This document shows positions 1 through 46,152 of a DNA stretch of 64,000 bases, in pieces. Positions within the stretch are counted from its first letter, which is position 1. Each line of letters begins with the position of its first letter. The position numbers and the translations under genes are program-made. The DNA comes from Sipunculus nudus (taxonomy: Eukaryota > Annelida > Sipuncula > Golfingiida > Sipunculidae). The stretch spans positions 23,793,019 to 23,857,018 of the forward strand of contig CM049306.1 in the NCBI GenBank assembly GCA_026874595.1. The letters are read 5' to 3'. A model generated the notes under the pieces. It saw only the letters and a program-made list of their open reading frames with translations, ran no database searches and was not told the origin of the DNA.

Positions 1-30
1 TATATATATATATATGTATATGTATGTATA
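1..30. repeat. TA/TATG microsatellite
   Basis: The window opens in an alternating TA tract that grades into TATG units. It is cut by the window edge, so its full length is unknown. Confidence 0.9.
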
Positions 31-1383
31 ACCACAGAGTAAACCAATAATATAAACTGTCCATGAATAACATCAATATTGAAAATTTCAAGCTACAGTA
101 ATATAAAACAGTCAATGATTAAACATAATGCTCATGAAATGAAAATTCGAAAACAGCAAGTAAAGAACTCTGGGGTATATTATTACTTCCGAAAATAGAT
201 TTTCGTGCCACCCCTTGGCACCATTGTGATTTATTTTCACACAAAGAGGTTTTCACACGGCATGCTATCCCCACTAAAAGTTTTACTAATACAATGTTAC
301 AATGACCCCATCCCAATATGCGATTTACTATATGAGCGGTAGATGGCGCTGTTAACTCTATTCACAGTGCTTTAACAAAGAAACCGATCAAGGTCTCATT
401 TTCCAGAATTAAAAATACCCCTCACAATCGCACGGTCAAACGTTCAGATGAATTTCATAGTCACTGAAACTGGTTTATAAAAAAAGAATCTTGCAAATGG
501 AAACCTGACCATGCAAGTCTTTAGTTAATATAGTTAATATACATCCGTCCACATTCTGAGTAGATTTCGTTGAGCGTCATGTCAAGTATATTCATGATAG
601 CAATGATTATCATAGGTTAAAGTTATATTTTTCCCTATTCTGCACAAACTCTAATGCCGGATCATTGATGAATAAGTTAGCATATATAAATATACAACAT
701 ACAGGTGAGAAAATATTCAGGTTAATGGGTTGTTTATTGAGGAAAATCCAAACCTTATATATATCTTGAAATCTCAGTTGAATAGATCGTCTCACACGTG
801 TACATGCTGGTATGTTTTCGGCTCAGACTTCTTTCGAGATAATTTTCGAGTTGAATTAAAACACAAGCTAATACTGGAAGACCATCTCTACCACAAACTT
901 TAACTTTAAAAGATCATTTTTTTTTATTTTGTATGTAGCTCCAAACAAACATCAGCACCATTGCACTCTGGCGGACAACAGATACGGTGCGTGTCATTTT
1001 GACGAATGACGTGTTACCGGAAGCTGCCCCTAACACTCAAAGCCCACCAACCTGTCGATTTAAAGATAAAATAAATAGGTCTCCAGGAGTCGCCGCGCGG
1101 TTACATGATTAACAAAAGCCCGTAAATCTGACCTTTGTATCGGGCTTATCGTGTATTTCATCGAGCGGAATATTATCGCGAGACCAGGAACAGTTCGATA
1201 CTGAAACAATTATTATCAAGACCTTACATTGAACCTGGAACACTTCTCCTGTTATAATTGCTTGATTTTGTTCATCAAACGGATATATTAAGCTATTGTT
1301 GAAAGAAGCTTTTACACCTGATCAAGGCCAAGTGACCAGGAGTTAACAGACGAGTCAATTTGTGATTCATTTGATAACCAAAC
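31..1383 (+). promoter_or_regulatory. Upstream region of the membrane glycoprotein gene
   Basis: No coding region is visible here. The part from about 950 to 1383 is less AT-rich than its surroundings and leads directly to the first start codon. It contains a TGACG-type CRE-like site near 1000-1012 and an AT-rich ATAAAATAAATA stretch near 1068. Either could belong to a promoter, but no clear TATA/Inr pair fixes a transcription start. The promoter role is inferred only from position before exon 1. Confidence 0.35.
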
Positions 1384-1460
1384 ATGGAAAGGTTACGAAT
1401 TTCTTGGAGGATTATGATCTGCATATATCTGCTAACAGAATTCTGTCAAAATATATCCAG
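1384..1460 (+). CDS. Exon 1: signal peptide of a type I membrane glycoprotein (long form)
   Basis: The start codon sits in a good Kozak context (A at -3, G at +4). The 25 complete codons begin MERLRISWR, a basic N-terminus, followed by a hydrophobic core (IMICIYLL) and a polar end (FCQNIS), as in a secretory signal peptide. The exon ends CCAG before GTATGT, a strong splice donor, two bases into a codon (phase 2). The next exons found on this strand at 3891 and 12678 both accept phase 2, which is the main reason to link them. The first complete residue after the junction would be Ser. The family is not recognised. The start choice is supported by Kozak context and hydrophobicity only. Confidence 0.6.
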
Positions 1461-2375
1461 GTATGTATCTTTCTTCATCATTCAATACAAGAGATGAATT
1501 TCACAGCAGTTATAAAGATTTATAAAATATATGATTGATAGATAACTTGCCATGATGTTCTAAGCCTGTCTACATGTATTCTGTGGCTTTCAATTGACTA
1601 ATAAAGAAATGTCGGCCAGCTTAATTCGGACACCTTCACTCATATGGTCATTGTTTGTGTGGAATTTGAAAATCGGCTCATAAGCAACAGAATTGACTAA
1701 GGGATTTTTGTTCCATCCTGGGGTCAGACATACCGCATGGCTTTAGTCAACCATTGTCTGACACACCGTCCTTGCCTGGCCACATGGCGCTCAGTGTCAT
1801 ACCCGCAGTGGTTGCCATATTGGAAACGTGGCCTCCCATCTCGCTGCTAATATATAGTGAATATAGAGATGTACACTTATATATATATATATACATGCCA
1901 TTCCTTCTGTTCGTCTTATATTTAAATACTAGCTGATAAACCCGGTATACCGGGCTTTTTACCGCGGTTTGGGAGATATATTTACTGAGATATTGAATGT
2001 TGGCTCATTTTTTTATTATAAAAGTTAAAAGAAAATATAGATTTTTAGTGGGATACTCTCGGAGTACGATATGTACAAATAATTTTTTACTGTTATTTTG
2101 TGGCGCTGTGCTCGTGACAAAAATCATATCCCGGTATGTTTACCTTAAAGACCTGGCCAGTGATGGTTTACATTGCGAACCGGAAAGTGTTTCGTTGATA
2201 TTTGACTGGTTTCTATCGTTTGACGTATAAAGAATAGGTTGATGTGAGGAACACATAAGATTAATTAAATGTACGTTGCAAGGAAACTGTTCCTGAAGAA
2301 GGAAACAGAAATATGCATACATCGTAAGTAGCAGAAGCGGACCCAGCGGGAATCCATGCAGTGGGTCCGTATCCC

Positions 2376-2472
2376 ATTTTCAGACCCCCGACACCACCCT
2401 AGCCCTGTTCCTGAATTCGGGACCTTGAATTAGGTTTTGTCATTAATCCTCCTGGGTTGAACTCTCCATTTC
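2376..2472 (+). repeat. Dispersed C-rich repeat, copy 1
   Basis: It runs from a run of C after CAGA to a block containing TCCTCCTGGGTTG. The same order (C-rich run, then a T-rich block, then TCCTCCTRGGTTGGA) recurs at 21390-21498 and 59640-59752, so this is a dispersed family. The class is unknown. It could be one end of a longer transposon. Confidence 0.6.
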
Positions 2473-2840
2473 ATAAAGCGAGAAACATGTGGGTCATCCC
2501 TCATTGAAAGCAAGCGTTATTCATATGAACAATAGTCCTTAGTGTTAGAGGTTAAGTGACCACGATGCACGCATTCCGGTGATTGCCGATGGCAGTTCGG
2601 TTGTGCTCGGTAAAAAAACTGTAAAATCACTCAAAATTATATGTATATTATAAATTATTTATTTTCATATCGCCTATGTCACTGCGGGGATAATAACCTT
2701 TAAAATGATGAATGGCACAATATTGTACACAACGCGGTTTTAGAGAACACCGCGAACAAACGTGAACTGAATTCCTTTTATAAGTATTATATTAGATAAA
2801 GTCCATGGTCTTGTGTTATACTTGAAAATCACGTACATAC

Positions 2841-2842
<2 letters not shown>

Positions 2843-2882
<40 letters not shown>

Positions 2883-2883
2883 G
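2843..2883. repeat. (AG)n followed by poly-G
   Basis: About 14 AG units run straight into a G homopolymer. This is simple-sequence DNA. Confidence 0.95.
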
Positions 2884-3079
2884 CGGGGGTGGGGAGGAGG
2901 CTGGAAATGTACGAATGAATGGGGCACGTTACATTTACTGTTATGCAATAGAATAGGTACACTTTTAAAATATGCATGCCTGAGGATAGTTGCAACATAC
3001 TCCACCAGATGGCGGGGAAGGCCTGTTACAATCACAGGTGATAAAATGACTAAAAAGTAAAGTTTGTTTGCTTAATCAG

Positions 3080-3817
3080 ATTCTGCAACACTAGGCAGCG
3101 TGAAATGTCTAAGGGAATGAATAAAGAAGTCAGTGTTTTTTTTGTTAACAAATAATTATAATTTATTCTTAAAGCAACCCTAACATTACAATACATTAAA
3201 TCAATATAATTACACAGTTTAATAAATAAAGTGTACAGTACCTGGATACCACCACTGTCACTGTGGTCCTAAAAAACGTATAATCCAGATGAACAGTTCA
3301 CATAAAACTCCTATGAGAATAATAGTCCAATTCAATCACAAAATCAATCTGTTGTAATCCAAAAGTAAAGTTCTTGTAATAATTCCGAAAGCAAACTGGA
3401 GACAGGCCGCACTAAATCTGCATAGAGTTCATAGAATCCCTGACACAACTGCAATTGGATAGGTCAAAACTGACTCACACTCTTCTGTGTCCGCTGAAAT
3501 ATTTCTCTTTCCCCTCGGCTCTTAAACACAGCCACTATAAATAACTTTTTATCCGAAAATTCTAGAAACTTCTATTTCACGAACAATCCCAAAGAATCCA
3601 TGCAACAATACAAAATACTCACGCCCAAAGAACATTAAATGACACGCGCTCATTGTGCGCGACCAGCCCAGAAAGGTTCATATTAGTATGAGCACTGTGT
3701 TTCTACACTCCGCCAGAGTTCAGCAGGTGCGGTTATTTATAGCAGCGCACAGGGTTTGCGCTTGACACGAAACTGAATGCCTACAGACACATGTACCACA
3801 ATTAAAGAGACACCTGT

Positions 3818-3822
<5 letters not shown>
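3080..3822 (-). mobile_element. Dispersed element A, uninterrupted copy (possibly a solo LTR)
   Basis: About 740 bp that match, in order and orientation, the two pieces 51553-51705 and 54377-54970. Shared blocks include the ends (GCAACACTAGGCAGCGTG at the left and TGTAACAAT at the right), GGATACCAC, and AGTCCAATT. Read on the minus strand it begins TGTTACA and ends near TTGCA, with TATAAATA close to the start and AATAAA near the end. That is compatible with a solo LTR of a Gypsy-like retrotransposon, but no target-site duplication is seen and no coding part is present. The right end abuts a TA microsatellite, 68 bp before the acceptor of coding exon 2. Confidence 0.7.

Positions 3823-3857
<35 letters not shown>
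3822..3857. repeat. (TA)n microsatellite beside exon 2
   Basis: A pure alternating AT run of about 18 units lies between element A and the splice acceptor of the Ser/Thr-rich exon. It is likely to vary in length between individuals. Confidence 0.95.
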
Positions 3858-3861
<4 letters not shown>

Positions 3862-3890
3862 TTCTGATGCTGTTTATTTGCTGTGCTTAG

Positions 3891-4139
3891 TGGGACGTCT
3901 ACAGCCGGGCCGGATAGCACAAACACCACGTCTGCCAATACTACAACCAGTACCTCTCAAGCAAGTCAGTCAAGTGTGTCCACACTCGTCTCCAGAAACA
4001 CAGTATTAACCACCAACGTCATCCGTAACACAGGGACAGCTGACGTCACTAACCCCACAGGGACCACTGACACCGCCACCCAAGGTGTCACTTCAGGCGT
4101 GACGCCAAAACAGACAACCCAGTCATCACCATCAAGAAG
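3891..4139 (+). CDS. Exon 2: Ser/Thr-rich mucin-like ectodomain
   Basis: A 249-base exon with acceptor TGTGCTTAG and donor AAG before GTACAC. The donor is weaker than the others in this gene. It enters and leaves in phase 2, so it can be skipped without shifting the frame. The roughly 82 complete codons are about half Ser/Thr (about 25 Thr and 15 Ser), with no Cys, no hydrophobic segment and two N-glycosylation sequons (NTT and NTT). This composition is typical of O-glycosylated stalks of cell-surface mucins and sialomucins. In the long product it covers residues 27-108, between the signal peptide and the transmembrane exon. No folded domain is recognisable. Function beyond a glycosylated spacer cannot be read from the sequence. 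Confidence 0.72.
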
Positions 4140-6021
4140 GTACACGAAATGCATATATTACCAAAATAACATGATCACTGAAACTTGTTAACAGTGTTAC
4201 TAGCCTAGTAACACGAGTGTTTGGAATCGGTTTGTTTCATCATGTTCGATGACTTTAGCAAGCAACCGATTTATTATTATTAATCGATTTTCGGTTAACG
4301 CATCTGATCTAATTATTATCCTTTCAACGTTTAAAGGACCAATTCCTATGGTGCTGACACACGTTCTTGTACAAGCAACGAATGAATTAGGTCGGACAAA
4401 AATGTATTTTAAGAGTTCTAACCTGAAATGGATTAATAAATGTTTTAATGCTCACAAACTCCGCTCGAATAGACCTATGTATTTCAAATTACCATTTTCA
4501 GCTTAAATCCAAGGTGGCCGCCATTATAAGGGGTGAAATATTTAAATGGCAATCATTTTATAGCTAGGTGCCTTAGGAACACATTTGAGGTTTCGAAGTC
4601 CAATAGCAGGTACACACCAGTAAACGCAATCATAAGTCCTATAATGACTTGATAAATCATGTTGTCATGGTACTGAGAACTGTGATAATACTCGTCAGGA
4701 CTTGCTTGTGTCCAGCCTTCTTTACGTTTCTGACATGCAGGCTTAAGAGATTTTTCGTAAATACATTACTTCTCGCACGTTTTTACATAATCAGTAACGA
4801 TCGATTACATGAAAATACAACCAAATTGATCGATTATGCAGAGAAACCCGACCAATCATCGATATGATCGGTTAATCTGCAAAACACCATGAAATACCTT
4901 CCGCACACGTCACTGCATCGAACAGAGAAAAGAGTAAGACCACGCAGAGCGCATAATATGTGCCCTGTCTTTTGTACAATATACATTTCCTTATTTATTT
5001 GCCTTCTGTCGAAAACGGAATGCTCTTTTAGTCACCTTGTGCGCCTCTATCGTGTTAGATGAATATGCCCAGAGTCAGATGCAACTAAATAGGATCATGA
5101 ATAGTGAGTTCTGTCCAATTAAAGTACCCGCCCCGTTGCACTTTTGGGCATGTCGTAGTTCTTCAAACAAGAAGTTGAAGTGTCATAAACAACACGGTAT
5201 TACAATAAACAAAGTACAGTATAGGAAAAGAAGAAAACCCTAAAACTACTCAGGAAAAAATGTAAACTTAACATCTCTCTCTATCTATAAATATATAAAT
5301 ATTTATACTTACTGATATCATGCGAGAATTAAAAAGGGTTATCAAATTAGATCAGACGTTTCCTAGTAATTGTATTTTACTCCATGGCCCATTGTTATCT
5401 GAGACTAGAAAAAGGTGACCCGTTGGGTCCCGTTGCAGAAGAAGGGTATATTGCCAGATATGTGGCCAGACCCGTAAGGTAGCGAACTTCCCAGACCCGT
5501 AAGGTGACGACGTCTGGTGGTCGATACAGAACTAATCTATATACATCTTTGTGTAACTAGGCCAAGGTGAAGGATGTGACCTGAGATGTGATCATGCTGC
5601 CGGAAATTTAATTATGTGCAAGTCGAAGGGCCAAATTTGTGCGCATTCTGTAAGTTAGGGCATATGACTGACGCTGATAGCAAAACTGGCCATCCGTCAT
5701 GGCCCGTTTCTGCGAAAATTCATGGACAAAACAAACCAACATACAAACTGGGCAATTTTTGTAGTATAATGATAAGCAAGTCTTTGTTAATATAAGACAT
5801 GCATGACAAATCAACTTTTCACGTGCATTGGAGACACTTGTCATTAAAATTGATATGCCATATTTTCGGCTTCACCGCAAGGGATACACCCACTATGTTT
5901 TGCGATAGTCCTATGTTATCTCATTTTGACATTTGAGTTATCAACGGTTATTTGTCATCTGTTGAATTAAGATTCATGGAGGGACTGCGTACCAGAAGCC
6001 AATTCGATGTTTTTATTTTTA
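4140..6021. other. Intron, no further exon recognised
   Basis: AT-rich with scattered short open frames of chance character. A 15-base direct repeat (CCAGACCCGTAAGGT) occurs twice, near 5466 and 5492. Nothing here has a codon-phase-matched exon with a recognisable domain, but a short divergent exon could be missed. Confidence 0.4.
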
Positions 6022-7105
6022 TTAGCTCAGCTGCCCATAGATCATCTGAGCTATAGTGATCGTCCTTTGTCCGTCGTCCATTAACAAGGCACAAATTGCA
6101 ATCGCTTGGCCTAGATACTTCCTACTAAATATCTACGTAGGTCCTAGGTAAATCTACTAGAGTACCAAACATTAGGTCACTATTCTGCCAGTTGCGCGCT
6201 TTGTGTGTGTTTTTACACTTAGAAAATCAGACTTATTACAGTGTTCTGGTGTACAAAATAAAAATTTTGTTGTCAACCTGAAAAGAAACATTGTTTCTTC
6301 TGTATATATAACATTGTTCACATGTAAAAATGAAGAAAATCGGCCCCGGAAGTTCTTCAGAGGTTTTTCGCACACAATTGTAAAATTTTACATTTTGGCC
6401 GGTTGATGTATGAAATCCATACTATAGATAAAATATCTCAAAGATGATTGCTGGATCTTTCTGAAATTTAGTAAGCTATTTAATTATGGATGACCCTCTC
6501 AGCGGGGACTGGTTGCATAATCTACATTTTTTTTTATTTTTGCGCATTTTCCAGACTAAGAAATAAGGGTTGAAATGTAATATATTGTAATATAATGTAT
6601 TACGTTTGAAAGAACGTGCATCATTTACATATGTCTCTATCACCATGGGAAATTTGAAGAAATTTTTTTTAATGAGTTATTTACGGCTGCTGCGGAAACA
6701 ATTGCAAAATACAGATGTAGCATCTGATTTGTACCTAAACTGCATTTTTAATGAGATTTTCCAGTAATGGTTGCTTGGTATGTATTGAAATTTGGTAAGA
6801 TTGATCATAATATCCAAGGCCCATCATCTGTGCTTTCCTCTTTCATCTGGTGGCGCCATCTATATTTTCTCAGTTTTTGTGCATTTACTTCGAGTAACGC
6901 GCATTTTTGTGAGTTTTTAACACAAAGATCATGTTAGTATTATGTGATGCAAAACCAAAAGGTTGCACTCAGCATTAAAAATTTTAAGAAAATCCATTCT
7001 ATAAATTCATCACAACTACCACAGACACAATTACAAAAATACAAAAATGAGTGTCATATGAGTGTCAAAGATCAGCTGAGCATCATGACCCCTGGGTCAC
7101 TTGTT
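6022..7105 (-). mobile_element. Dispersed element B, copy 1 (hairpin-ended, non-autonomous)
   Basis: The left edge (TTAGCTCAGCTG, then a near-complementary ATCTGAGCT) is the reverse complement of the hairpin that closes the copies ending at 24597 and 54376. The right edge (GACCC...GGGTCACTTGTT) is the reverse complement of the palindromic start of those copies at 22601 and 51706. The interior is about 1.08 kb, AT-rich, lacks long reading frames, and is largely different from the satellite units of the + strand copies. The shared ends with variable interior point to a non-autonomous family moved by another element's enzyme. Confidence 0.7.
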
Positions 7106-7240
7106 TCTATTACCAGTATAAATTATATGAGGTGTGTCATGCACTTCCTGGTTATCGGAAATTGGTCTTCGTTTGTTGACTTTTGAAGAATGGTTGTTTT
7201 TGTACTGATCTTGTCTTGAATGTTTGAATAGGTCATCAGC

Positions 7241-7525
7241 AGTTTTCGAATCTCAGCCTAGGCGGTGAGATATTTTACGATCGGCCCCACCCAGGGTGCA
7301 GGCTTAATGGGAAGGCCGAGCCATACGGCCGTGTTTCAATCAAAGAGGAATGCGCTTTGAGGGTTCCTCGGTGGTATGACCTAGCAATGGGAACTATTAC
7401 ACACCCAGGGCCCGCAGGTGCAGAAGTCACTGGGCCTGATTGACACCAGGATTTTAAATGAGAGAAAGCGTGTGATACTGGCCTGTCACGTAGTCGGAAA
7501 CCGGAATAGGATTCTGCAGATGTAC
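7241..7525 (+). mobile_element. tRNA-derived SINE, 5'-truncated copy
   Basis: It begins at the B-box region (TTTTCGAATCTC, then CAGCCTAGGCGGTGAGAT) and continues through the family body: GATCGGCCCCACCCAGGGTG, GTTCCTCGGTGGTATGACC, CACCCAGGGCCCGCAGGTGC, and the 3' mark CGGAAACCGGAAT...TTCTGCAG. The same blocks occur in the copies at 10951, 31931, 32562, 34235 and 41331. The A-box half is missing. Confidence 0.8.
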
Positions 7526-8158
7526 ATGCATATACTTAGATTTAAGCTAGCATTACAAAATGGAGGCGGTTACCTCTATCAATAAAAAATCTTGAAAAAT
7601 TATAATCCAGTTTATATGGATATTCAAACACGATAACACGACCATGAGCATACAGTATATTTTACCACACATACATGGTTGAGTTTCACTGTATGACATA
7701 CAAATACATACATGCATTAACAGCAATTAAATTTTTACTGTGAATCATTTTGAATAATCATGAAAAATAATGAGTTTAAAAAATAAGGTAAAAAATACGA
7801 ATATCTTTTCAAAAAGAGGGCACCAAATGTTTTTTTTTTATATAAAATAAAATTAAGAAAAAAAAATGAAGTCAGCGATATATTCGCCCCTCGATGACGG
7901 GTTAATCAACATACAGATCGCCTCAGAAACTTATAGCTTGTCTTCAGAGGGACGTTATTACCACTCACGACGCGCCCGTTATCTGAGCTGTCCGCACTTT
8001 GTCCGCGTCGCCTTCCATGTGCCATATTTCTCTCTATCTGTTGATAAGGAGCCTGACTGGGTCACTATTGTTTAATTTATAACAGATTTATGTCCCAGCG
8101 ACTTCAGACCGCGCACACCTGCTTTGGCATATTAAGGTTCGGTCAGGAATAGTCAAAT

Positions 8159-8214
8159 ATGGCCAAGTTATTTCTGTTTTGTTTGTTGTTTGCTGTTGTG
8201 ATAAGTTTAGCCAG
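8159..8214 (+). CDS. Alternative first exon: second signal peptide
   Basis: A start codon with A at -3 and G at +4 opens 18 codons reading MAKLFLFCLLFAVVISLA. This is a compact, strongly hydrophobic signal peptide with a small-residue cleavage region. It ends CCAG before GTGAGT, a near-consensus donor, in phase 2. That matches the acceptor phase of exon 3 at 12678 (and of exon 2, which lies upstream and so cannot be used). Joined to exons 3 and 4 it gives a 116-residue protein with only about 19 residues outside the membrane after cleavage. The likely explanation is an alternative promoter of the same gene. It could instead be the true first exon of a separate gene that owns exons 3 and 4, or have unseen partner exons. 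Confidence 0.6.
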
Positions 8215-9351
8215 GTGAGTGGAATTGTTATTTTATTGTTTCTTCAGTGATGACGTTGAAAGCAGAGAACTCTGGTGTTCGAAAATTTCTCTGGACATTA
8301 TGCGCTTTATGCGTGGAAGTTGGCATTTGAGTTTAGATTTAACTAAGGATAATATCCTTTTTTTATATTAAAATTAAATGTCAATTTAGGTTCAATCGGC
8401 AATCACTCCTTCCACTGCAGAACCCTGAACGCTAAACTACAAGTCTTAAATAATACTCCAGCTTACCAAAGAAGGCACGTTTATAAATGAATACAATATA
8501 TGTATATGTACCATGGCCAGTAAAATATGTAGTGGCACGAACCATCGAATTGTTTCCTTTAGAAGGGCATATATGAAGCTGAAATGGGATACATTCACAT
8601 GCATATTCATGTGTATATTGTATATACGGTGCATGTGAAGCTTTCAGTATAGATAACATGGCCACCTGAAGCAAATACATCTGTAACTAATGTTTTTACG
8701 CTTATGTTTAGAAAGAGAACAGGGATACTATAAATTCATCTACATTACATAAACAGACTGCCGAAACTTTGCTGCAGATGGAAAATAATATGACATATAA
8801 CATATATTGAGCGCAGTTATAAGTATAGATAATATTCTCGGGGATGCATCGGGGTAAGTTTACCTTTATATCATTATTATTTTTTTTCCCGCGCGGACTG
8901 TTACAAGCACAATGGAAGCCTGTGTTAACAAATGCTTTTTCCGCTCACTTATGGACGCCTGGGGAATATAACAATATATGGCCTTTCTCCCACACAGAAA
9001 ACTCACATATATTGCGACATAATAACAAATGTCTGGATTACGGCATAGGTTAAAGATGTTACAGTAGATAAGTGAAGCATACGGAATGTTCTGCCCCAGT
9101 AGTTCACCTCAATATGTAGTCAATATCCTCCAATCATTTATGGAAACGGGTTGCAGCATCCTGATATACTTTAATATTTCATATATACGATGTTACAAAT
9201 CACAATCCGTATCAGATGTACGTTTATTTCGGCATTTGGGTATGCACTAAAACAATTATGATATAAAACTCGATAATAATTTTATAAGATATGTGGTGTG
9301 GAATATGCTATGATAAAATATGTAAAATAAATTATAATATAAAGCAACATA
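8215..9351. other. Intron between the second signal exon and exon 3, first part
   Basis: AT-rich sequence with no recognised exon or repeat family. The short open frames look like chance. Confidence 0.4.
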
Positions 9352-9636
9352 CAGAAGAACCTCGAATATCCGAATTTATTCGGATAACTGAGGTTACGGA
9401 TATGAGAGGTCAGACATTTTTCAGAAGTGTACTGTAAGTACATTGGCTAAATAATTTTCCATGTTTCATGTATATGTTAATACGTTATCTCATCAGACCA
9501 TTTTAAATCATCATTAATCCTTTTTTCTTTCTAAAGCAGAGAAACATTTAATTGTGATAAATTTTGGTTCCTAACTCTAAATTTTGGAAAAAATAATTTT
9601 AGGAAAAAAGAGATACGAAAATTTGAGGCAGTACTG
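9352..9636. mobile_element. Pogo/Tigger-like MITE
   Basis: The left end CAGAAGAACCTCGAA and the inverted right end CAGTACTGCCTCAAA match at about 10 of 15 positions. Both are flanked by TA (9350-9351 and 9637-9638), the target duplication of Tc1/mariner elements. The inner sequence with ATCCGAATTTATTCGGATA and GAGGTTACGGATATGAGAGG resembles the terminal region of pogo/Tigger transposons. At 285 bp it has no coding capacity. Confidence 0.5.
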
Positions 9637-9660
9637 TAATTACATATATTAATTTTTAGT

Positions 9661-9766
9661 ATTATATATACTACACTGTACTACACTAAACTCTACTCTT
9701 CTATACTATACTATATTATACTATACTATACTATACTGTACTGTACTGTACTATATTATACTATAA
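9661..9766. repeat. (TATAC)n pentanucleotide repeat, imperfect
   Basis: Repeated CTATA/CTGTA units with interruptions. This is simple-sequence DNA. Confidence 0.85.
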
Positions 9767-10950
9767 ATAGTATTATGATAAAATATAAAGTAATTATAAT
9801 ACAATATAAAATAAGAATTACAATAAAATAATTCATTTTTTTATTGCTTTATACAGTGTTTTTTTCTCTTATATTTGTTACAAAGAGCTGTTACAACTAT
9901 TGAATGAAACGTCCCCGCGCTCGATTACGCTCTGGCAGCGTGACTCGCTCCCTTGCTCTGGGTCAGGACCTTATCTTATCATCAGATCGTCCAAAGATCA
10001 AAGGAAGAATGGAAAATTTTATGTTAAATGATATTTATGTGATTAATATTGATTGTGTTAGAAACACCATGTAGTAGTCACTTATTAAGTATATAATGCC
10101 CGAGAATGATGATGATCGAACAAAAGTGGGATAACCTTTTTATAATATCAGAGATAAGGTGATAATTCTTTTTTAAATGTGTATTTATTAATTTACCCTA
10201 AATTATAAGAAACAGAATATGATGCTTTATTTAAATGTTTTTCACTTTTAGTGATCTACCTGCTCGTCACTATATTGCTTCAGAGTGAAGTTTCATTTTT
10301 ACCGGCATGCTTCAAAATGTAACATATCAAACATAACAAAAGACCGGCTTAGATATCCGACACAACAGACTAAACTGATTATCTGCAAACCCAAAAGATG
10401 TATATACATATACGGTCTATGTGTCACCAGCCTGCAAATAACAATATATAAATATGAAATAAATACCAAACAGTTTATAATTAGATGTGATATGTATGTA
10501 TCCCCTGTGTGCGATCTCCAATAATAATCAGTGCCAGTAGCTTTGGCACAAATCCGTTTTTAACACGATTTAACCAATTCTACATGACATAATTTATATG
10601 TAAAATTGATGCCTCCTCGGCGAAGGATTGCTGTCTTGTTTTTTTTTTTATTTATATAACTACTGTGCAAACTTTTAAGACAATAAACTTATGAGAGGCT
10701 TTGTCATTATCGTTAACATACTATCGACCCGGCAGTCAAACTGGTGAGACCAGAATTTGGTGCCGCATTCCTATTTATGTAGAATATAAAAGAAAAAAAA
10801 ACCCATTAAATCCAATGTCTTCAGATAAACAAAAAACATTAACTAACGTTTTACACATATTACAGAATACTTCATATTTAATCAGGATATATGATATCTC
10901 CTAGTTGGGTGTTCGGATAGTATTGACTTTACTGTACATGTGTGTGGAAT
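9767..10950. other. Intron, nothing recognised
   Basis: AT-rich intronic DNA. No exon, RNA gene or repeat family is recognised. Confidence 0.4.
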
Positions 10951-11238
10951 ACAGATACATAGCAGGGCGAAAGCACAAGTTTTTTTTTGGCATCACCCAG
11001 GTCCCGTATACCGCACCTGTAGGTACTGGGCGTGTAATCATCATCATTGCTTGGTTATAATACTATGGAACCACCGAAAGGCGCACTCGTATGTGAATGA
11101 GGCATGGGCGTGGGGCACATCCTTCCCCTTTAGCCTGCAGAGCACTCAACCCGGACCCCGGCCGACCGTGTGACATGTTATCGCTCACCGGCCGTGATTC
11201 CCAATCTTCTGCTCTGTCCATTTACCTCAGGAGCCGTT
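10951..11238 (-). mobile_element. tRNA-derived SINE, degenerate copy
   Basis: In reverse orientation it carries the same body blocks as the intact copies: GGTCCCGTATACCGCACCTG, GGGCGTGTAATC, GAACCACCGAAAGGCGCACTC, TAGCCTGCAGAGC and GGCCGACCGTG. The tRNA-like head is heavily diverged but still visible near 11190-11238. Confidence 0.75.
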
Positions 11239-11410
11239 AAAAATTTATATATTTAATTCGTACCACCTGCACTCAGAGGTGTTTCTATGGTTGAATATTT
11301 ATGATACATCCTCCTCTGTGACAGATGGATTGAGGTCTAAGTTACAATGACTATTTATTTACAAGTGGATACCTGCTGTTTAACGGAATTGTTTTACAGG
11401 TGTGAGTTAT

Positions 11411-11439
11411 TGTAGTGATAACCCAGGGTTATCACTACA
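11411..11439. promoter_or_regulatory. Perfect 14-bp inverted repeat with 1-bp centre
   Basis: TGTAGTGATAACCC is followed by a single A and then its exact reverse complement. A 29-bp near-palindrome is long for chance. It could be a dimeric protein-binding site or a cruciform-forming sequence. It is not part of a repeat recognised in this window, and the role is unknown. Confidence 0.6.
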
Positions 11440-12677
11440 CCGCCCGTCACGGAGTGCTTTGTCTTGCCGGTCATGTCAAGTAGTGTGTCTAATCATTTAT
11501 AATTACGCTGGTGACCTGCAATACCATGATTCAATGTGACGACGACGCATGTAACGCTGGTGGTAACAGCTACAGCAGGATGCCACCCGGGATGGAAAAT
11601 TAAACCCACTAAATACAAATTTATTTGATAACAGTATAGCAACATTATATATCCAATAGTCATGATAATTCCTCAGCTCTATAATTATACCTGTTTTCCC
11701 TTGGTTCGTTGATTGGTTGGTTTGCCTGTAAGCAACTGTACACTTAAAGTTTTAGGGATTTTGATGCAATTGTGTGGAGGGTTGTGGTAACATCCAAAGA
11801 TAATCCATTAATTTTTTAGGTGAGCTGGGTCACCATGATATATTTTCCATTCAAAGGATAATATACAATTGTGACAGAGGAAGAAGCCTTCCCATTCATA
11901 GGTATTAGGGACAGCATTTGTTCGGAAACTGGGTATGTGAACCCGATCCTGAAGGGTTTCTAGGTGGTGGTGCGACTTCACACATCTAATAACACCGCCC
12001 CCCCCCCCCCCAACACACACACACACACACGAATGCGCGCTCTCTCTCCCTCCCCTCTTTCTCTCTCCTTTGTAGCAACTATGAAAAAAAAATGACTAAA
12101 GTAATTTGATGATACAATAAGTTGTTTTCAAAGGATTCTACACCAATGTTATATAGTGCAATTTCTTTGTCTCGGCCGTAAGTCGTTCGTCAGTTTGATG
12201 TTGGTTTGATGTTGGGGGTTTTATCATCGATATCAGGGGCTGGCTCACCTTTGAACCCGTGTTAGCAAACTGTAACACTGAGTATCGCCCATGAAAGTAT
12301 TATTAGGTAAACATGCAGGCACAGGCACAAACCCTGTTAGTCATGACAAATAAAATAGAAGTCTATAAATAAGAGTGCATTTCCGTTAAGAGAGGTCATA
12401 TGAAAATTACAAAGATTATCTTGCACAGTTCTCTCCCAAGATATGCTGATCAAGGGAACGTAATTAACATAATAAAATTGCACTATAGACATGGTTTAGT
12501 TTAACATTTTTTTTACAATATGAGAATAAATTTTTTTTTTAATTTCAACAAAAAAAAAATTCAAGAAATTACAACAAATTAACAAGCATGACAAGTTTGA
12601 TCTTTCATCCTCTTATTTTATATCTGACCTTTGTCCTTATTTTAAACACATTCTGCATGATACGTTGAATATTTCAG
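11440..12677. other. Intron with simple repeats
   Basis: Non-coding. It contains a C-run plus (AC)n at 11998-12030 and a CT-rich tract at 12040-12069. The last part leads into the exon 3 acceptor ATTTCAG. Confidence 0.5.
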
Positions 12678-12815
12678 CGCAACGAACTCAACTCCGAGAC
12701 CTACCGGGCCTTCCGGTCTAGAGAGAACTGACATCATCATCATTGCGGTCACGTGTGCTCTGATGGGTGGCGTGTTGATAGGAGCAGTGGCGTTCGCCTG
12801 TAAAAAGAAACACCA
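12678..12815 (+). CDS. Exon 3: juxtamembrane stalk and transmembrane helix
   Basis: A 138-base exon between acceptor ATTTCAG and donor GTAAGT, phase 2 on both sides. It encodes an 18-residue Thr/Pro/Ser-rich stalk starting ATNSTPRPTG (with an NST N-glycosylation sequon). Then come about 23 hydrophobic residues from IIIIAVTCA to AVAFAC, and then KKKH as the stop-transfer signal. The helix contains GVLIG, a GxxxG motif often used for helix pairing. The positive charges on the C-terminal side, with a signal peptide upstream, predict type I topology: N-terminus outside, tail in the cytosol. In the long form these are residues 110-154, with the helix at about 128-150. Confidence 0.8.
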
Positions 12816-13420
12816 GTAAGTCATTATATTTAAATATTTATGAACTTTTAGATAATAAATATTCCACATATTTGTTTTACAGTCAATATTTTGTCGCTTG
12901 TTAAATAAGGTTCCACAGACGTCAGCACCTGTCGTACCTTAAATATTTTCCATTGAAAAAAATATTATCTTGCATAAACAGCTGAATTAAACTCAGCTTT
13001 TCGATTTAGAGACGCAATTTTCTCCCCCCCCCCCCCCAAAAAAAAAAAAACACACACACACATTTTCATATATCTTAATTGTTTACAGGACTTGGGCCAG
13101 ATACCTCTACCTGTACCTTCATTAGGGTCATTTCAGTGTACCTGTTCCTCTCATGAGTAGTACAGGAGACTGGAGTATCAGATCCTGGTGTGTTGTACTC
13201 TATGTACAAGTATGAAGCTAGAAATCCTATGTTGAATTGCTTAAAGATAAAATGAATGCAATTATCATAAGGTCAAACTTTAAGTATCTGTATCTGTACT
13301 TTCTTCAGCACTGCGACCTTTACCTTACGCAATACGTGTAAATGTACTTGTATCTAACCGCCTCACAAATACCTGTACGTGTATCAAGGTACCCTCGCTA
13401 GAACCTGGCCCAAATCCTGT
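12816..13420. other. Intron 3, first part
   Basis: Non-coding. It includes a compound C-run/A-run/(CA)n simple repeat at 13024-13062, and ends at the TIR element whose left target duplication is AAATCCTGT (13412-13420). Confidence 0.5.
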
Positions 13421-13888
13421 TACGCTCTCTACACAGCGCTTTCCCTATAGGCCTACTACCTATATCGTAAGCGCTGTTTGTTTTGACCTCGTATCCTGAA
13501 TCGCTACACCAGAGGGGAGCACTGTATTTTGGTCCAATCAGATGAGACCCTGTGCAGGAAGAAAAACGGTTTACCAGCCAAGCGAGGAATACAGGGGGCC
13601 AATGTTGTTCATTTCGTTTTGAGTGACTCCTAATCGCCACGGCAACCGTTTGAACAGGCCATAGGCTCAGAGAGAATGGCCCTATATACACGTGGTTTCT
13701 GGGCGGAGTCTGATGCCTGTCGAGTGTTGGTTGACTGGCATTTGGTTGGCTGCTAGTCACATCAGCAGTTTTGTCAGCAGACAGGCCCACCACCTGGTGT
13801 TTAAGTGCATCATAAACGGTCAAAGCAGGCAGCGGGAAAATCAGTAGGTTCTTTAGAAGCGCAAGATTTCCGCTGCCTCGGGAGCGTA
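13421..13888. mobile_element. TIR transposon C (Mutator-like MITE), deleted copy
   Basis: A 468-bp element with inverted ends TACGCTCTCTACACAGCG and TACGCTCCCGAGGCAGCG, matching at 13 of 18 positions. It is flanked on both sides by a perfect 9-bp direct repeat, AAATCCTGT (13412-13420 and 13889-13897). A homologous copy at 28052-28750 has the same ends and its own different 9-bp duplication. A 9-bp duplication suits Mutator-like (MULE) transposition. Compared with the other copy it lacks an internal stretch of about 220 bp. The long minus-strand open frame across it (13398-13907) shows no transposase features and is judged accidental. Confidence 0.88.
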
Positions 13889-13897
13889 AAATCCTGT

Positions 13898-15766
13898 TTG
13901 TGTACACAGAAAATGAAAAAAAATATGTGCATTATTGACGGACAGACAAACAGAAGGAAAAATAGGCATGTGGGATAATTTAAAGTTATCCTCAAAATCA
14001 TTATCCGTTAATCATGTATCCGTTTAGATTTCAAGAGACGTTATTTTACGAAGCGCATTAATATCCGGAAACTTGAAAGTCAGAGAGCTGAGATTAAAAT
14101 ATTTATGCATAAGTATTGTGTTATAATCAGCTATCACGTGTCGCCCGGTATATCAACTGCAATTTTATTGTACGACAAATCATAAATGGTAGGAATAAAT
14201 ACAATTTAAACAAACTCTGCTGAAATTTGGGTTAATTGAGTTACCTAAAGGGTAAACATTTTATATTAAAGCTAATTTTCCTGGTTTGCCTTTTTTTTTA
14301 AACGGTGAAATTTAAATAAATGTCATTTTATCCGTCTGTGATTGGTTGATGGTTTCATTTATCGTTCCAACACGTGATAGCACAGAAATTAATTTTAAAA
14401 TCATTAATTGATATCGCTGGCTGGGATTTCAGTGGAATTAAATTCAGTGGTATCAATTATGAAAATTAATTGACAAATAAGCCAGGTAACATCAATTTTC
14501 AGTTATAAATCACGGATTCAAATAAGTTTCAGTGGCTGCTTCAATCCACATAATCAGCAAATGAATCAACAACTAATGTGCTTATTAATTAGAAATTGGC
14601 GAATCGATGATGCCTGTCTTCTATTTGAAAAAAAAGTGTTTGAAGAGTTAACATAGGTGGGTTTTACCGACGATTCTTATATTTTATATTGTGGTTGTTC
14701 TACGAAGGGAGAACGGAATTCAAACAACCTAACCAGTGATGCCACTGGGTTTCATGAAGGTTGCATAATATGTTTTAATGACAAAAAAGAAATGATCAAA
14801 TGTCTAAAAGTAAGAAAAATTATATATAACAAATAGTCCAGCTTTACGTAACAAGCTTCATTAGGGCCGGACAGGGGTGTGAAACAAGCCCTGGTACTTT
14901 ACGTAAAAGCGACCCAGATTTGATACGCTCTTTCGTCAATATTTATTTCATACCATCGGCCCACAGGCATCAAGATATTATACACCTTTCTGCAAGAAGT
15001 CTTTTCTATGCGAACCGAATATCTTCCGTTTGGCCACTGTGGGACAGCCGGGCTGCTTGTCTCAAATGTCAAACTTTAAAATAAAAATTTGTTACATTTC
15101 ACGGAAACTCCTGTTTACATTCCACATGCGCATGCACGCTTACAAAATATTACCTATTCCGTAAAACCCTTACCATAAAAACACCCATGTTTGACTTGAA
15201 ACAATTATAATCAAACACCCTTCAACGGACTACGTTGTCCTCTTCACTACATTTCTACGTACGCCGCTGGTGTATTTAAAAGCGTTGTGAGGGTCAGATT
15301 TTGACCCCTAGCAATCCCTAAACAGCAAAGTCGTATTCTTGCGAGTCCGAGTCTGCGCAGTGTGGATAATAATTATTATATTGTTTTTTTTTATTTTAAA
15401 CTTTCCGGTAACCCATTGGGCCAGTCATCCCCTGAGCTCCAGATATGGTATCTGAAGTTAGTAGCGAATGGCACAATTACTCAATATTTTACACTTGTGT
15501 GACACATCGGCAGAGTATATCTGTCTCTCACCAGTTCTGAAATATGAGGGCACAATGTAAAATCACCTGTCAAAATGACGTAAATTTTAAACTGTGAAAA
15601 CGTGAGTGTGATTATGTAAAAAAATAGTATAAAAAAAATATGACACCTTAAAAAATGATAATATTCTTTGTAACAGTGCTTTAAACATATTTATACATAT
15701 ATAGCCCATCTTTATAAGGTTTGGATTTTATAATGTTAAAAGTAAATCCTCTGATTTTTTTTTCAG
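13898..15766. other. Intron 3, second part
   Basis: AT-rich, with no exon or known repeat recognised. It ends in a T-rich tract and CAG, a good acceptor for the last exon. Confidence 0.45.
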
Positions 15767-15923
15767 GAATAACAAGGAAAGAACTGAGATTTACAACGAA
15801 TACCTGAGTAGAGACCAGATGCACGGTATACCGCGTACTGCTAGTGGTACATTGTACGATAAGTACGCATCAACCGCCACCAAGGGTGAGGAAAACGCCG
15901 GCTATGTGTCAGAAAGACTTTAA
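15767..15923 (+). CDS. Exon 4: cytoplasmic tail and stop codon
   Basis: After acceptor TTTTTTTTTCAG, the first base completes a Gln codon with the CA left by exon 3, then 51 codons follow to TAA (15921-15923). The tail is hydrophilic and rich in charged residues, with five tyrosines in the contexts IYNEYL, LYDKY and GYV, any of which could be phosphorylation or adaptor sites. It ends SERL, where E-R-L would fit a class III PDZ ligand weakly. No folded domain is seen. The frame through exons 3 and 4 is unbroken, and a poly(A) signal follows 148 bases later. Joined totals are 206 residues (exons 1-2-3-4) or 116 (8159 exon-3-4). The gene family is not recognised. Confidence 0.8.
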
Positions 15924-16070
15924 ATGATATGGGACATTCAATTTACCAGCAATATCCTATCTTGTGTTGTTCTGAAAACGCAGCACCTTGCTCTACCAGC
16001 AACACGTGTAATCTCAAATTTGTGGCATTGAAATCCGATTTTACATAGCGGAACCATGCATCTTAACTTA

Positions 16071-16076
16071 AATAAA
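16071..16076 (+). terminator. Poly(A) signal of the membrane glycoprotein gene
   Basis: Canonical AATAAA lies about 150 bases after the stop codon. It is followed by TTTTATTGCCTGTAATTTTC, a plausible T/GT-rich downstream element. This places the transcript end near 16095. Confidence 0.65.
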
Positions 16077-16538
16077 ACTTTTATTGCCTGTAATTTTCTA
16101 CATCACGTTGCTCTCAGAGACACTGTAATGCTCATCTGCCGCAAGACCGAGTAGATATGCACTTAATACTAGTATGGTATAGATAGGCACGTAGCCTTGT
16201 GGGTTTTCTGTTGGATTTCGGAGCTAAAAAAATTCCTCAAAGGAAAGATGGCGAAATCTCGATAGGACTTCAGAGACTTGTATCATAAGTCTTAGCTTTA
16301 TGTATGCGTTCTGAATTATTCCTTATCCTGTGAATAAATCGCCCGAAATCTTATAACATTCTGTCTATTCAACCTAATTAAACAGAGAGTGTCAACTCTA
16401 AAGGCCATGGGCATATTTATTTGTGAAAATAGAGACACAATGAAAAAGATCATTCTTTGATACATAACATATATACAAAGTTAAATTTCGAATATACAAC
16501 GAATTGGTTTGTGATAAACAGAATTGTGCTAAATGTAG

Positions 16539-22600: not shown

Positions 22601-24597
22601 AACAAGTGACCCATGGGTCATGACGCTCAGCTGTCTGGGAAGAGATTCGCAAAAGGAACTTTATCATCTGAATGAAAGTATATACCCATTCAACTGAAGC
22701 ATCAAACAGATTAACCAACAGGCCAAGATTGTATCTGTATTAATATATATAAAAAATAAAAAAAAATGCGTAAACTTAAAAAAAAATTCAGGTGGTTCCA
22801 CCAGTCTGCAGAAACTAATAAAAACACTTAATGGTCAATATCCATGCAAAGAATCATGGTGATCTCTGCATTAGTTGTTCAGATACTTCAGCTTTTGTAT
22901 AAAATTTTCCATTTTCTGAGGGATACTTTGGAGTCCTATAGCTTGAAGGATATGGGTAACAGAGACCTAATTTCAGGTTTCCACAGACACTTTTCATGGG
23001 CCCTCCTTGCATGACAAGAATGAAGATTCTAGGTCCGGTTGTTACAATTTTAGAACGTTAACAGATGACATCATCCTTAAAGGTTTCAATAATAGAGAAA
23101 AAAAATCGAAAAATTGAATAACATATAGGTTGCACCACCAGTCTGCAGAAACTAATGAAACACTCCATAATCATATCCATGCAAAGAATCATGGTGAATG
23201 CATTAGTTGTTCAGATACTTCAGCTTTTGTATCAAATTGTCCATTATTCTGAGGGATACTTCTGAGTCCTATAGCTTGAAGGATATGGGTAACAGAGACA
23301 TAATTTCAGGTTTCCACAGACACTTTTCATGGGCCTCCTTGCATGACAAGAATGAAGATTCTAGGTCCAGTTGTTACGATTTGTACCCTGTTGACAGAAA
23401 ACCACATCTTTAAAGGTCTCAAAAATAAAGAAAAAAATTCGTAAAAATCTGAAAAAAAATAGAGGTGGCGCACCCAGTCTGCAGAAACTGATGGAACACC
23501 TCATGATCAATATGTATGCCAAAAATCATGACCATCAGTGTTGTAGTTATTGAGATACTGCAGTTTTTGTATCACATTTTTCATTATTCTGGGGGGTATT
23601 TTGGAGCCATACAGCTTAAAGGTTATGGGTAACAGAGACATAATTTCAGGTTTCCACAGACACTTTTCATGGGCCTCCTTGCATGACAAGAATGAAGATT
23701 CTAGGTCCAGTTGTTACAATTTGTGCCACGTTAACAGATGACACCATCCTTAAAGTTTTCAAAAATAGAGAAAAAAAATTCGAAAAATTGAATAAAATAC
23801 AGGTGGCACCACCAGTCTGCAGAAAATGATGAAACACTCCATAATCAATATTCATGCATAGAATCATGGTGATCTCTGCGTTAGTTTTTCAGATACTTCA
23901 GCTTTTGTATTAAATTGTCCATTATTCTGAGGGATACTTCGGAGTCCTATAGCTTGAAGGATATGGGAAACAGAGACCTAATTTCAGGTTTCCACAGACA
24001 CTATTCATGGGCCCTCCTTGCATGACAAGAATGAAGATTCTAGGTCCAGTTGTCACGATTTGTACCCTGTTGACAGATAACCACATCTTTAAAGGTCTCA
24101 AAAATAGAGAAAAAGATTCGAAAAAAATCGTAAAATACAGGTGGCGCCACCAGTCTGCAGAAACTGATGAAACATCTCATGATCAATATGTATGCCAAAA
24201 ATCATGACCATCAGTGATGCAGTTAATGAGATATTGAAGTTTTTGTATGAAATTTTTGACCATTCTGGGGGATACTTTGGGGCCCCATAGCTCGAAGAAT
24301 ATGGGTAACAGAGACCTAATTTCCATGGAGACTTTTTATAGGTCTCTCAGTGTGTTAAGAATGAAGATTCTAGGTCCAGTCTTTACGATTTGTGCCCTGT
24401 TAACAGATGTTCATATTTTTAAAAGTCTCAAAAATAGAGAAAAAAAAATCGTAAAAAATCGAAAAATACAGGTGGCGCCACCAGTCTGCAGAAACTGATG
24501 AAACATCTCATGATCAATATGTATGCCAAAAATCATGACCATCAGTAATTAAAGAGTGATCGCTATAGCTCAGATGACTTACAGTCAGCTGAGCTAA
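22601..24597 (+). mobile_element. Dispersed element B, copy 2, carrying a satellite array
   Basis: It starts AACAAG and then the perfect 14-bp palindrome TGACCCATGGGTCA (22607-22620). It ends with a hairpin: AGCTCAGATGAC, a 5-base loop, then GTCAGCTGAGCT, and CTAA at 24594-24597. The copy at 51706-54376 has the same two ends. Between them is a tandem array of about 336-bp units. The layout (palindromic start, internal tandem repeats, 3' hairpin followed by CTAA, insertion in AT-rich DNA without clear target duplication) resembles non-autonomous Helitron/Helentron elements such as HINEs. No Rep/helicase coding is present, so this assignment is inference. Confidence 0.75.
22770..24545 (+). repeat. 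Satellite array, units of about 336 bp
   Basis: The landmark CCACCAGTCTGCAG (with small changes) begins at 22798, 23135, 23471, 23809, 24147 and 24478, giving periods of 337, 336, 338, 338 and 331. Each unit also contains ATGGGTAACAGAGAC, AGATTCTAGGTCC and CAAAAATAGAGAAAAA. Units differ by many substitutions, so the array is not very recent. Confidence 0.95.
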
Positions 24598-31717: not shown

Positions 31718-31843
31718 ATTTTGCTACGGACAAATAACCTCTTGCTACGGCTCAATAACCTCTTGCTACGGCCAAATAACCTCTCGCTACGGCCAAATAT
31801 TCTCTTGCTACGGCCAAATAACTTCTTGCTACGGCCAAATAAC
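31718..31843 (+). repeat. 21-bp minisatellite, 6 copies
   Basis: GCTACGG starts at 31723, 31744, 31765, 31786, 31807 and 31828, exactly 21 bp apart. Because 21 is a multiple of three, one + frame stays open and reads repeated CYGQITS. That frame (31356-31877, 173 codons) otherwise has no recognisable domain or splice signals and is probably accidental. Confidence 0.95.
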
Positions 31844-31930
31844 CAATGAATTCAGTGACTGGAAGATCATGTTATGAGTAGAGGCCACGTCTTTTTATAT
31901 AATTAATAGAAATAGGGGGTTCGGAAGGAG

Positions 31931-34164: not shown

Positions 34165-34234
34165 TTCTTTCTTTTTTTTCTTTTTTTTTTTTTTTCTTTT
34201 TTTTTATTCTCACTTAACTAATTCTTAACTAAGT

Positions 34235-34590
34235 ATGTACATCTGCAGAGTTTCCTTTCGGTTTGGAACTACATGACAGGGCGGTAGCACTCGCTTCCTA
34301 TCATTTATTTTTTATATCCTGGTGTCAACTAGGCCCGGTGTCTACCGCACCTGCGGGTCCTGGATGTGTAATAATCTCCATTGCTGGGTCATAACACCGA
34401 GGAACCCCCCAAAGACGCACTCATATGTGAGTGATACACGGCTGTAGGGCACAGCCTTCCCATTAAGCCTGCAGAGCGCTCACCCTGGGTGGGGGCCGAC
34501 CGTGAAAAACCTCACCGCCTCGGCTGAGATTCGAACCCACGATCTCCCGGCTTTGAGTTCTGCGCTCTACCCCTGAGCCACAGAAGCCAG
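34235..34590 (-). mobile_element. tRNA-derived SINE, near full length
   Basis: On the minus strand it begins GTGGCTCAGGGGTAGAGC (A box, 34564-34581). A B box GGGTTCGAATC follows at 34528-34538, which together mark an RNA polymerase III promoter from a tRNA. The body follows with GCCGAGGCGGTGAGG, CACCCAGGGTGAG, GGTTCCTCGGTGTTATGACC and GGACCCGCAGGTGCGGTAG, and it ends near CAAACCGAAAGGAAACTCTG then CAGATG. At about 350 bp this is one of the two best copies in the window. It is a SINE rather than a tRNA gene because the cloverleaf 3' half is replaced by the body. Confidence 0.92.
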
Positions 34591-35344
34591 TTTTTCAAGG
34601 CTTTTTCAAAGGCTTTTCAAGAAATGCGAAGACTGCCAGCGACCATCAGTGAGAAGAGTTTAAACTTGATTGTTATATTGATGTACGACCGAAACAGCAA
34701 CGAATGTGAAGTGAATACAGTCAGGATACATCTTTTCACACAGATGTGCCGAACACTCGAACACATCCTACTAACTAAAGCTGCACTGTCGGAACATATC
34801 TAGCGCGCTTGCTTACAGGCATATTGTTGGGACAAAGCACTTGTCACTGACCCTCCGTTGCCATCACCTTCTGATTTGGGTTGGCTGAAGGCTGTTGATG
34901 ATAGGGTCCTGCTATGAGCTCATCCAATCATTGTTACTGCATAAAAAACATGCACTGGATGATGCAGTTGCTTCAAAGCAGCGTTAAAATGCACTACCCT
35001 GTTTGCTTGTTCTGGAGATTGGACAATCACGTATATAGAGTTTGGTCGGAAAATTAAAGAAAAGTATTAAGCCCAGACAATAATATTAACACAAGGGCAT
35101 ATAATACAGATTTGAACTATAAACCATCTAAGAGACAAAGATATACGCAACAGGAGTTTCAAGGGTAATCAGCAGCTGTGACAAAAGTAGACAGCAGATT
35201 AATCGGATCGGCCAGTCTTGCAGGAACGCTGATGAACTACTCTCACTGAAACATGTTCATAGAATAAACAGCCCCGGTAAGCATGCTTTACCGATGCTTC
35301 TCTTGATAACAAATACCTGTATGTCACAGGCTCCCCATATAAAT

Positions 35345-41330: not shown

Positions 41331-41671
41331 TACATCTGCAGAATTCCATTCCCGTTTCGGACTCCGTGACAGAGCAGTATCACACGATTACTCTCATTAA
41401 ATATCCTGGTGTTTACCAAGCCCGGTGACTACTGCACCTGCGGGCCCTGGGTGTGTAATCACCCCCATTGATTGGTCATACTATCAAGGTACCCCCGAAA
41501 GGCGGATTCGTTTGTGAGTGAAACACGGCCGTTGGGCCTCCCCATTTAGCCTGCAGAGCGCTCGCCCTGGGTGGGGCCGACCGTAAAAAATCTCAACGCC
41601 TCGGCTGAAATTCGAACTCACCATCTCCCGGCTTTGAGTCCTGTGCTCTATCACTGAGCCACACAAGCCGT
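41331..41671 (-). mobile_element. tRNA-derived SINE, near full length
   Basis: Same family and orientation as 34235-34590. The A box, read on the minus strand, is GTGGCTCAGTGATAGAGC (41645-41662) and the B box GAGTTCGAATT lies near 41609-41619. The body shares CGCCTCGGCTGA, GGTGGGGCCGACCGT, AGCCTGCAGAGCGCTC, CACCTGCGGGCCCTGGG and TCCCGTTTCGG (as written on the + strand). Confidence 0.92.
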
Positions 41672-44988: not shown

Positions 44989-45570
44989 TTGTTGTTTATT
45001 GTACGTTTATGTACATGTATTGAAACATGCATTAAACATGCGTATAGGAGGTGCAATGTTGTTACTTGCCGTTAGTTGGTTGGGTAGAAGATCGTATGGT
45101 TTATCGATCTGTTAATTTACTGAAACCATATATGAAAGAACTTTGGTGAAATAATGTGGAGTTTGGATAACACCGGAGGAACAGTCATTTACATTTTGGG
45201 GGTATCTTGATTATCATAATATGATTTGTTCTTTACCATTCAAAATAGGACAACCCAGTTCGTCGTCATTCATGTGTATATGTAAGGTGAACTTAAAGTG
45301 TAAATTAACGAGTTGAGTGTATAAAAGCCACATCATCGGAGCATAACTTATTCAAGTCGGCAGAACTGACCAGTGATGCAACCATCGAGTTGGTGAAATA
45401 TGACATCCCTTTCTCTTGACTTTCATTAACTTATCCGGCACTTGCGTAACACACATTTTATCAGGCTCCATGTAGTATTCCGCTCAAGCTATTCCAGGAT
45501 GTTGGCGGAGGCATATATGTCACTTACTGCTCTCTGGTACTGACAAACGAAGTATTACATCCGTGTGAAG
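44989..45570. repeat. 582-bp tandem duplication, copy 1
   Basis: The block from TTGTTGTTTATTGTACG to CCGTGTGAAG is repeated at once at 45571-46152. I found no mismatch between the copies when reading them side by side. The junctions share only a few bases (TTG). There is no reading frame of note. A TATAAAAG box (45320-45327) with downstream sequence suitable for a core promoter lies inside each copy. Confidence 0.97.
45320..45327 (+). promoter_or_regulatory. TATA box in the duplicated block
   Basis: TATAAAAG, repeated at 45902-45909, stands out from the pure TA runs nearby and is a good TATA match. No coding exon is recognised downstream, so a promoter role is speculative. Confidence 0.25.
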
Positions 45571-46152
45571 TTGTTGTTTATTGTACGTTTATGTACATGT
45601 ATTGAAACATGCATTAAACATGCGTATAGGAGGTGCAATGTTGTTACTTGCCGTTAGTTGGTTGGGTAGAAGATCGTATGGTTTATCGATCTGTTAATTT
45701 ACTGAAACCATATATGAAAGAACTTTGGTGAAATAATGTGGAGTTTGGATAACACCGGAGGAACAGTCATTTACATTTTGGGGGTATCTTGATTATCATA
45801 ATATGATTTGTTCTTTACCATTCAAAATAGGACAACCCAGTTCGTCGTCATTCATGTGTATATGTAAGGTGAACTTAAAGTGTAAATTAACGAGTTGAGT
45901 GTATAAAAGCCACATCATCGGAGCATAACTTATTCAAGTCGGCAGAACTGACCAGTGATGCAACCATCGAGTTGGTGAAATATGACATCCCTTTCTCTTG
46001 ACTTTCATTAACTTATCCGGCACTTGCGTAACACACATTTTATCAGGCTCCATGTAGTATTCCGCTCAAGCTATTCCAGGATGTTGGCGGAGGCATATAT
46101 GTCACTTACTGCTCTCTGGTACTGACAAACGAAGTATTACATCCGTGTGAAG
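45571..46152. repeat. 582-bp tandem duplication, copy 2
   Basis: Head-to-tail partner of the preceding block, apparently identical. Perfect identity in non-coding DNA means either a very recent duplication or an assembly error such as two haplotypes or a read-overlap artefact joined in series. Confidence 0.97.

Follow-up and report, generated by a model that had tools for sequence, protein, structure and literature searches.

Can the choice between two promoters decide whether a small membrane protein carries its cytoplasmic tail beneath a glycosylated stalk or almost bare? The question is raised by a locus at the beginning of a 64,000-nucleotide stretch of the Sipunculus nudus genome (positions 23,793,019 to 23,857,018 of contig 1, CM049306.1, in a genome of 1.43 Gb), referred to below as the window. 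Five candidate coding exons lie there in the order A, ST (Ser/Thr-rich), B, TM (transmembrane) and T (tail). Judged from the sequence, the balance leans towards a real and apparently single-copy gene that would encode a small type I membrane glycoprotein from two alternative first coding exons, A and B, each preceded by a CpG-rich patch resembling a promoter (Table 1).

An earlier note had proposed the five exon intervals with phase 2 throughout, and the boundaries turned out to be exact to the base, with AG and GT flanks present wherever they are needed. Joining A, ST, TM and T gives an open frame of 206 aa and joining B, TM and T one of 116 aa, with phase 2 at each join, so that both products described in the note were recovered. 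Around the ATGs of both A and B, position −3 is A and position +4 is G, and each ATG has a stop in its own frame on the 5′ side (at 1375 for A and 8150 for B); within 300 bp, one further ATG precedes A and four precede B.

Table 1. Candidate exons, polyadenylation signal and candidate promoters at the locus
Feature	Position (strand)	Length (nt)	Description
Exon A	1384-1460 (+)	77	Candidate first coding exon with a donor in phase 2; moderate predicted signal peptide MERLRISWRIMICIYLLTEFCQNIS
Exon ST	3891-4139 (+)	249	Ser/Thr-rich symmetric exon, phase 2-2, zero cysteine
Exon B	8159-8214 (+)	56	Candidate alternative first coding exon with a donor in phase 2; strong predicted signal peptide MAKLFLFCLLFAVVISLA
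Exon TM	12678-12815 (+)	138	Symmetric exon, phase 2-2; sequon next to the membrane, then a transmembrane helix containing ALMGGVLIG and a CKKK stop-transfer
Exon T	15767-15923 (+)	157	Cytoplasmic tail, five tyrosines, stop codon
Polyadenylation signal AATAAA	16071-16076 (+)		About 150 nt past the stop of exon T
CpG-rich patch, candidate promoter 1	901-1300 (+)		Maximum of 19 CpG in 300 bp (98.8th background percentile)
CpG-rich patch, candidate internal promoter 2	7851-8150 (+)		18 CpG per 300 bp, 98.3rd percentile

Initiation at A would produce a 206-residue membrane mucin consisting of a signal peptide, a Ser/Thr-rich stalk of about 100 residues that is probably O-glycosylated, the helix and the tail. 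Its predicted ectodomain contains 46 S or T among 98 residues (47%), with 7 P and no C, and the long form has four sequons, one of which (N23) falls within the likely signal peptide. Initiation at B, situated within the long intron before the TM exon, would give a 116-residue stub. The predicted signal peptide of exon B has a strong hydrophobic core, and A-S-A is one of seven sites passing the −3/−1 rule; if cleavage occurs after it, only 17 residues would be left outside, with a single N-glycosylation sequon at N22. The helix has a mean hydropathy of 2.66 over 19 residues and is followed by the basic stop-transfer sequence, which qualifies it as a single membrane helix. It includes an AxxxGxxxG small-residue pattern; patterns of this type favour helix pairing, and since the helix is common to both forms it could bring them together. 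Reading of the 57-residue tail by eye revealed no ITIM (immunoreceptor tyrosine-based inhibitory motif), Yxx-phi or YxN motif, and one loose match to NxxY (NAGY). Most of the spliced chain is expected to be disordered. Such a gene would probably serve to place the tail at the membrane, in one form under a bulky glycan stalk and in the other without it; the stub would then compete with the mucin or work independently of a ligand. What the note had described as one gene with two starts and a mucin/stub pair stands as far as the layout (two candidate signal exons, a Ser/Thr ectodomain, one helix and a tyrosine tail) and the chance controls given below are concerned; the use of both starts, glycosylation and a receptor role, like helix pairing and signalling by the tail, are what we infer from it.

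How often would such an arrangement arise by chance? A chain was counted where a signal exon is followed by a TM exon and then by a final exon, all in phase. On the forward strand of positions 1-16500 the filters left two signal exons (A and B), two TM candidates (one exon with two acceptors) and one tail, which form two in-phase chains. No chain was found in 300 sequences of 16.5 kb simulated with an order-4 Markov model, for which background and window together served as training set. The 34 strands of 10-kb background loci (with 3 signal, 0 TM and 22 final candidates) had none either, and the same holds for seven other segments or strands of the window, counts which show rarity and yield no clean p-value, the cut-offs having been chosen after the exons were seen. 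The Markov sequences contained on average 0.13 signal, 0.003 TM and 0.91 final exons. When a donor of at least 10 bits and a 10-residue hydropathy of at least 2.0 were demanded, both strands of the 170-kb background yielded three signal-exon candidates, two of them with one common donor, and the window three, including A and B. The TM exon ranks top in the window; at a looser cut-off the background contains one such locus (three entries). The ST exon is 48% Ser/Thr, and a threshold of at least 30% returned five background entries, the highest at 35%.

The two starts do not fare equally in these controls. An equal of exon B was encountered in none of 400 simulations, while exons resembling A appeared 60 times, and from these simulations a chance of about 0.03 can be calculated for a phase-2 exon of this kind across the 11 kb before TM. 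B is the firmer of the two starts and A the weaker. The 60 simulated exons were evenly distributed over phases 0, 1 and 2 (21, 22 and 17), and an origin of phase 2 in the filters was rejected on this ground; since simulated signal exons show no phase bias, the shared phase counts as evidence. Excerpts of PMC1626468 report that phase 1 is over-represented among introns near signal-peptide cleavage sites. It follows that two signal exons which both end in phase 2 and fit a single acceptor depart from the usual pattern, and this speaks for linkage of both to the same gene.

The two highest CpG peaks of positions 1-16500 (901-1250 with 19 and 7851-8150 with 18) are each located directly 5′ of A and B. 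They fit two promoters and provide modest evidence for them. A dispersed repeat of about 350 bp, with copies about 79% alike in both orientations (7245-7588, 34224-34594 and 41274-41674), has its first copy upstream of candidate promoter 2.

Searches of the genome are consistent with a single copy. Exon A, the ST region with its flanks and the B region (7900-8300) each matched only themselves, and the only significant matches of the TM/tail protein were its own two exons; these searches score the best candidates only and skip simple repeats and very common words, so diverged copies may escape. A possible tail paralogue on contig 8 (29% match, E 2.95) has a lysine run in frame and was judged to be due to chance. 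Derivation of the exons from repeats was rejected, as none of the 40 longest self-matches of the window overlaps an exon and the exon regions match only themselves in these searches.

Splice sites were scored with a generic animal matrix, and their ranks refer to all GT and AG dinucleotides of 17 background loci, each 10 kb long, taken from this genome. The donors of B, A and TM reach the 99.99th, 99.7th and 98.2nd percentiles, and the acceptor of T the 99.75th (score 10.2).

A number of observations weigh against the two-start gene, besides the choice of cut-offs mentioned above. The remaining splice sites are mediocre: none of the four donors ranks lower than that of ST (91st percentile), the acceptors of ST and TM stand at the 81st and 79th, and an alternative, out-of-phase acceptor for the TM exon at 12722 scores higher than the one in the model (5.2 versus 3.7 bits). 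The hydrophobic core of exon A is weak (10-residue mean of 2.0) and its −3/−1 cleavage context only fair. Further CpG peaks follow close behind the first two (4751-5050 with 17 and 10901-11300 with 16), and the window as a whole has a mean of 8.4 compared to 6.1 in the background. With splice sites left out of account, the background often shows open 30-residue stretches dense in S/T (up to 0.50), and two loci in the 20 kb directly upstream of the window (L005/L006) contain stretches of 0.60 and 0.87 (a threonine run) versus 0.63 for the ST exon. No homologue exceeded the threshold for either product in Pfam or for the TM/tail piece in PDB: the best Pfam matches were TMEM132_C for the long form (14 bits, cut-off 27) and YxzE for the short form (15.1, cut-off 40), and PDB sequences matched at E 0.04 or worse. 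Finally, position 8421, 206 nt past exon B, is a strong acceptor that scores 9.6 bits and has a pyrimidine tract; it makes the two-start gene slightly less likely, and slightly more likely the alternative in which only the chain starting at A is real.

The weakness of exon A and of the ST donor would be accounted for if the TM/tail gene in reality began at B only, A and ST being spurious or part of a separate gene, for example one for a secreted Ser/Thr-rich product ending at 4189-4191. The ST frame indeed remains open for about 17 codons beyond the donor, and an AATAAA is found at 4435. This explanation nevertheless appears rather unlikely, since the ST donor is in precisely the phase required by TM, a phase-2 exon like A is seldom expected in this span, and the top CpG peak of positions 1-16500 lies upstream of A.

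Conversely, only the long chain A-ST-TM-T might be real, in which case B would be an open reading frame (ORF) arisen by chance or would begin a nested gene. Splicing of B to 8421 would produce a secreted peptide of 41 residues with a stop at 8490 and the C-terminal end ...AYQRRHVYK. By chance, 0.07 acceptors as strong as this one are expected per 206 nt, and about 1.4 across 8215-12677; nothing recognisable was seen in the 22-codon frame that follows, and one has to go to 9326 for the nearest AATAAA. The absence of any equal of B from the simulations makes a chance ORF unlikely. We consider this explanation improbable.

It is also improbable that further unrecognised exons, such as a short one between B and TM, are part of the gene, in which case the short form would be no stub. 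A few weak exons in 8214-12670 do pass low cut-offs (11677-11727 and 11909-11932, for example), and the ST and TM acceptors of our model are weak themselves. However, the same interval contains no symmetric phase-2 exon that combines good sites with a Ser/Thr/Pro-rich composition, and between 8264 and 15766 no phase-2 final-exon acceptor scores above that of the tail. The short form is thus probably a stub. That the five exons form a degenerate or chance set from which no gene is expressed would agree with the lack of Pfam and PDB homologues, but is very improbable in view of the chance controls, the poly(A) signal and the intact frames of all exons.

With the two-start gene as the preferred reading, it can be compared to known systems, for which we rely on excerpts of the cited papers. 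The earlier note knew of no described family with such an arrangement; this claim fails, given that sf-Stk and CASY-1B/C follow the same logic. As outlined in PMC3185572, sf-Stk is transcribed from a promoter in intron 10 of Stk/RON and keeps the transmembrane and kinase domains while most of the ectodomain is gone, without a signal sequence. There an internal start leads, and here it would lead, to a membrane form missing most of the ectodomain; in contrast to sf-Stk as outlined there, exon B would supply a signal peptide itself, and no domain is recognised in the short tail. The C. elegans calsyntenin forms CASY-1B and CASY-1C, of 160-167 residues, are described in PMC5864096 as products of alternative promoters in a long intron which retain the C-terminal part. 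They resemble the predicted B form in their intronic start, truncation and retained C-terminal part, and differ, in the same excerpts, by a long form with cadherin and LNS domains and by short forms without a validated signal sequence.

The yeast signalling mucin Hkr1 gives rise to a truncated, active C-terminal form from an internal promoter (PMC11581313). Like the gene proposed here it is a mucin with an internal start, but its gene is intronless, the promoter is exonic, and the abstract names no alternative signal-peptide exon. Gamma-neurexin keeps almost no ectodomain, and beta-neurexin has its own signal-peptide exon. Excerpts of PMC12665717 and PMC10689797 report a long alpha and a short beta neurexin from alternative promoters and a short gamma form in invertebrates, and disagree on the existence of a fly gamma-neurexin. 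Long and short isoforms of one gene are the common element, whereas the LNS and EGF domains of neurexins are not found here, nor is any homology: at E 10, Pfam matched neither product to an LNS, EGF or cadherin domain. CD164 and glycophorin A are small animal sialomucins, short type I membrane mucins like the predicted long form, and the helix of glycophorin A carries GxxxG; no sequence match to them was found in Pfam or PDB. Among the papers listed on molluscan membrane mucins with alternative first exons, molluscan haemocyte sialomucins and small signalling mucins, none matched as judged by title and abstract opening. Less usual in the present case is that the stub would carry its own signal-peptide exon, for which beta-neurexin is a similar case.

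Other features of the window and its surroundings are repetitive. A tandem array with a 338-bp period (5.3 copies, 22752-24546) has a diverged relative about 30 kb away at 52743-54291, and an open frame resembling this repeat by eye was noted in background locus L018. A 585-bp segment is doubled head to tail with 100% identity (44989-45573 and 45571-46155), reflecting either a recent duplication or an assembly artefact. In L005/L006, several identical Ser/Thr-rich stretches about 8.7 kb apart hint at a large tandem duplication. A 21-bp tandem repeat of about six copies (31721-31844) has one frame open within a 175-aa ORF with a CYGQITS-like unit, for which Pfam returned no match at E 0.01. At the same threshold no Pfam family was found in the 86 of 366 window ORFs (at least 50 aa) that passed an entropy filter, and Rfam gave no match over the window at gathering scores.

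We tentatively put forward a more specific proposal, which is possible rather than probable. The gene could be an orphan, perhaps lineage-restricted, signalling mucin in which two promoters, both with a signal-peptide exon of their own, display the same dimerising helix and five-tyrosine tail either stalked or bare, and the stub and the mucin might compete or pair in one cell. If true, this would represent a compact promoter-level switch for a signalling mucin. Provided that its expression follows our model, the gene would offer a natural example, of very small size, of promoter choice setting the ectodomain on a membrane tail, with a signal peptide of its own for each form. Known so far from large receptors and from adhesion proteins, this logic would then also apply to an orphan mucin gene that is small and has five coding exons. 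Phase and exon grammar are sufficient to propose such a gene from raw sequence even when it has no relatives in the databases.

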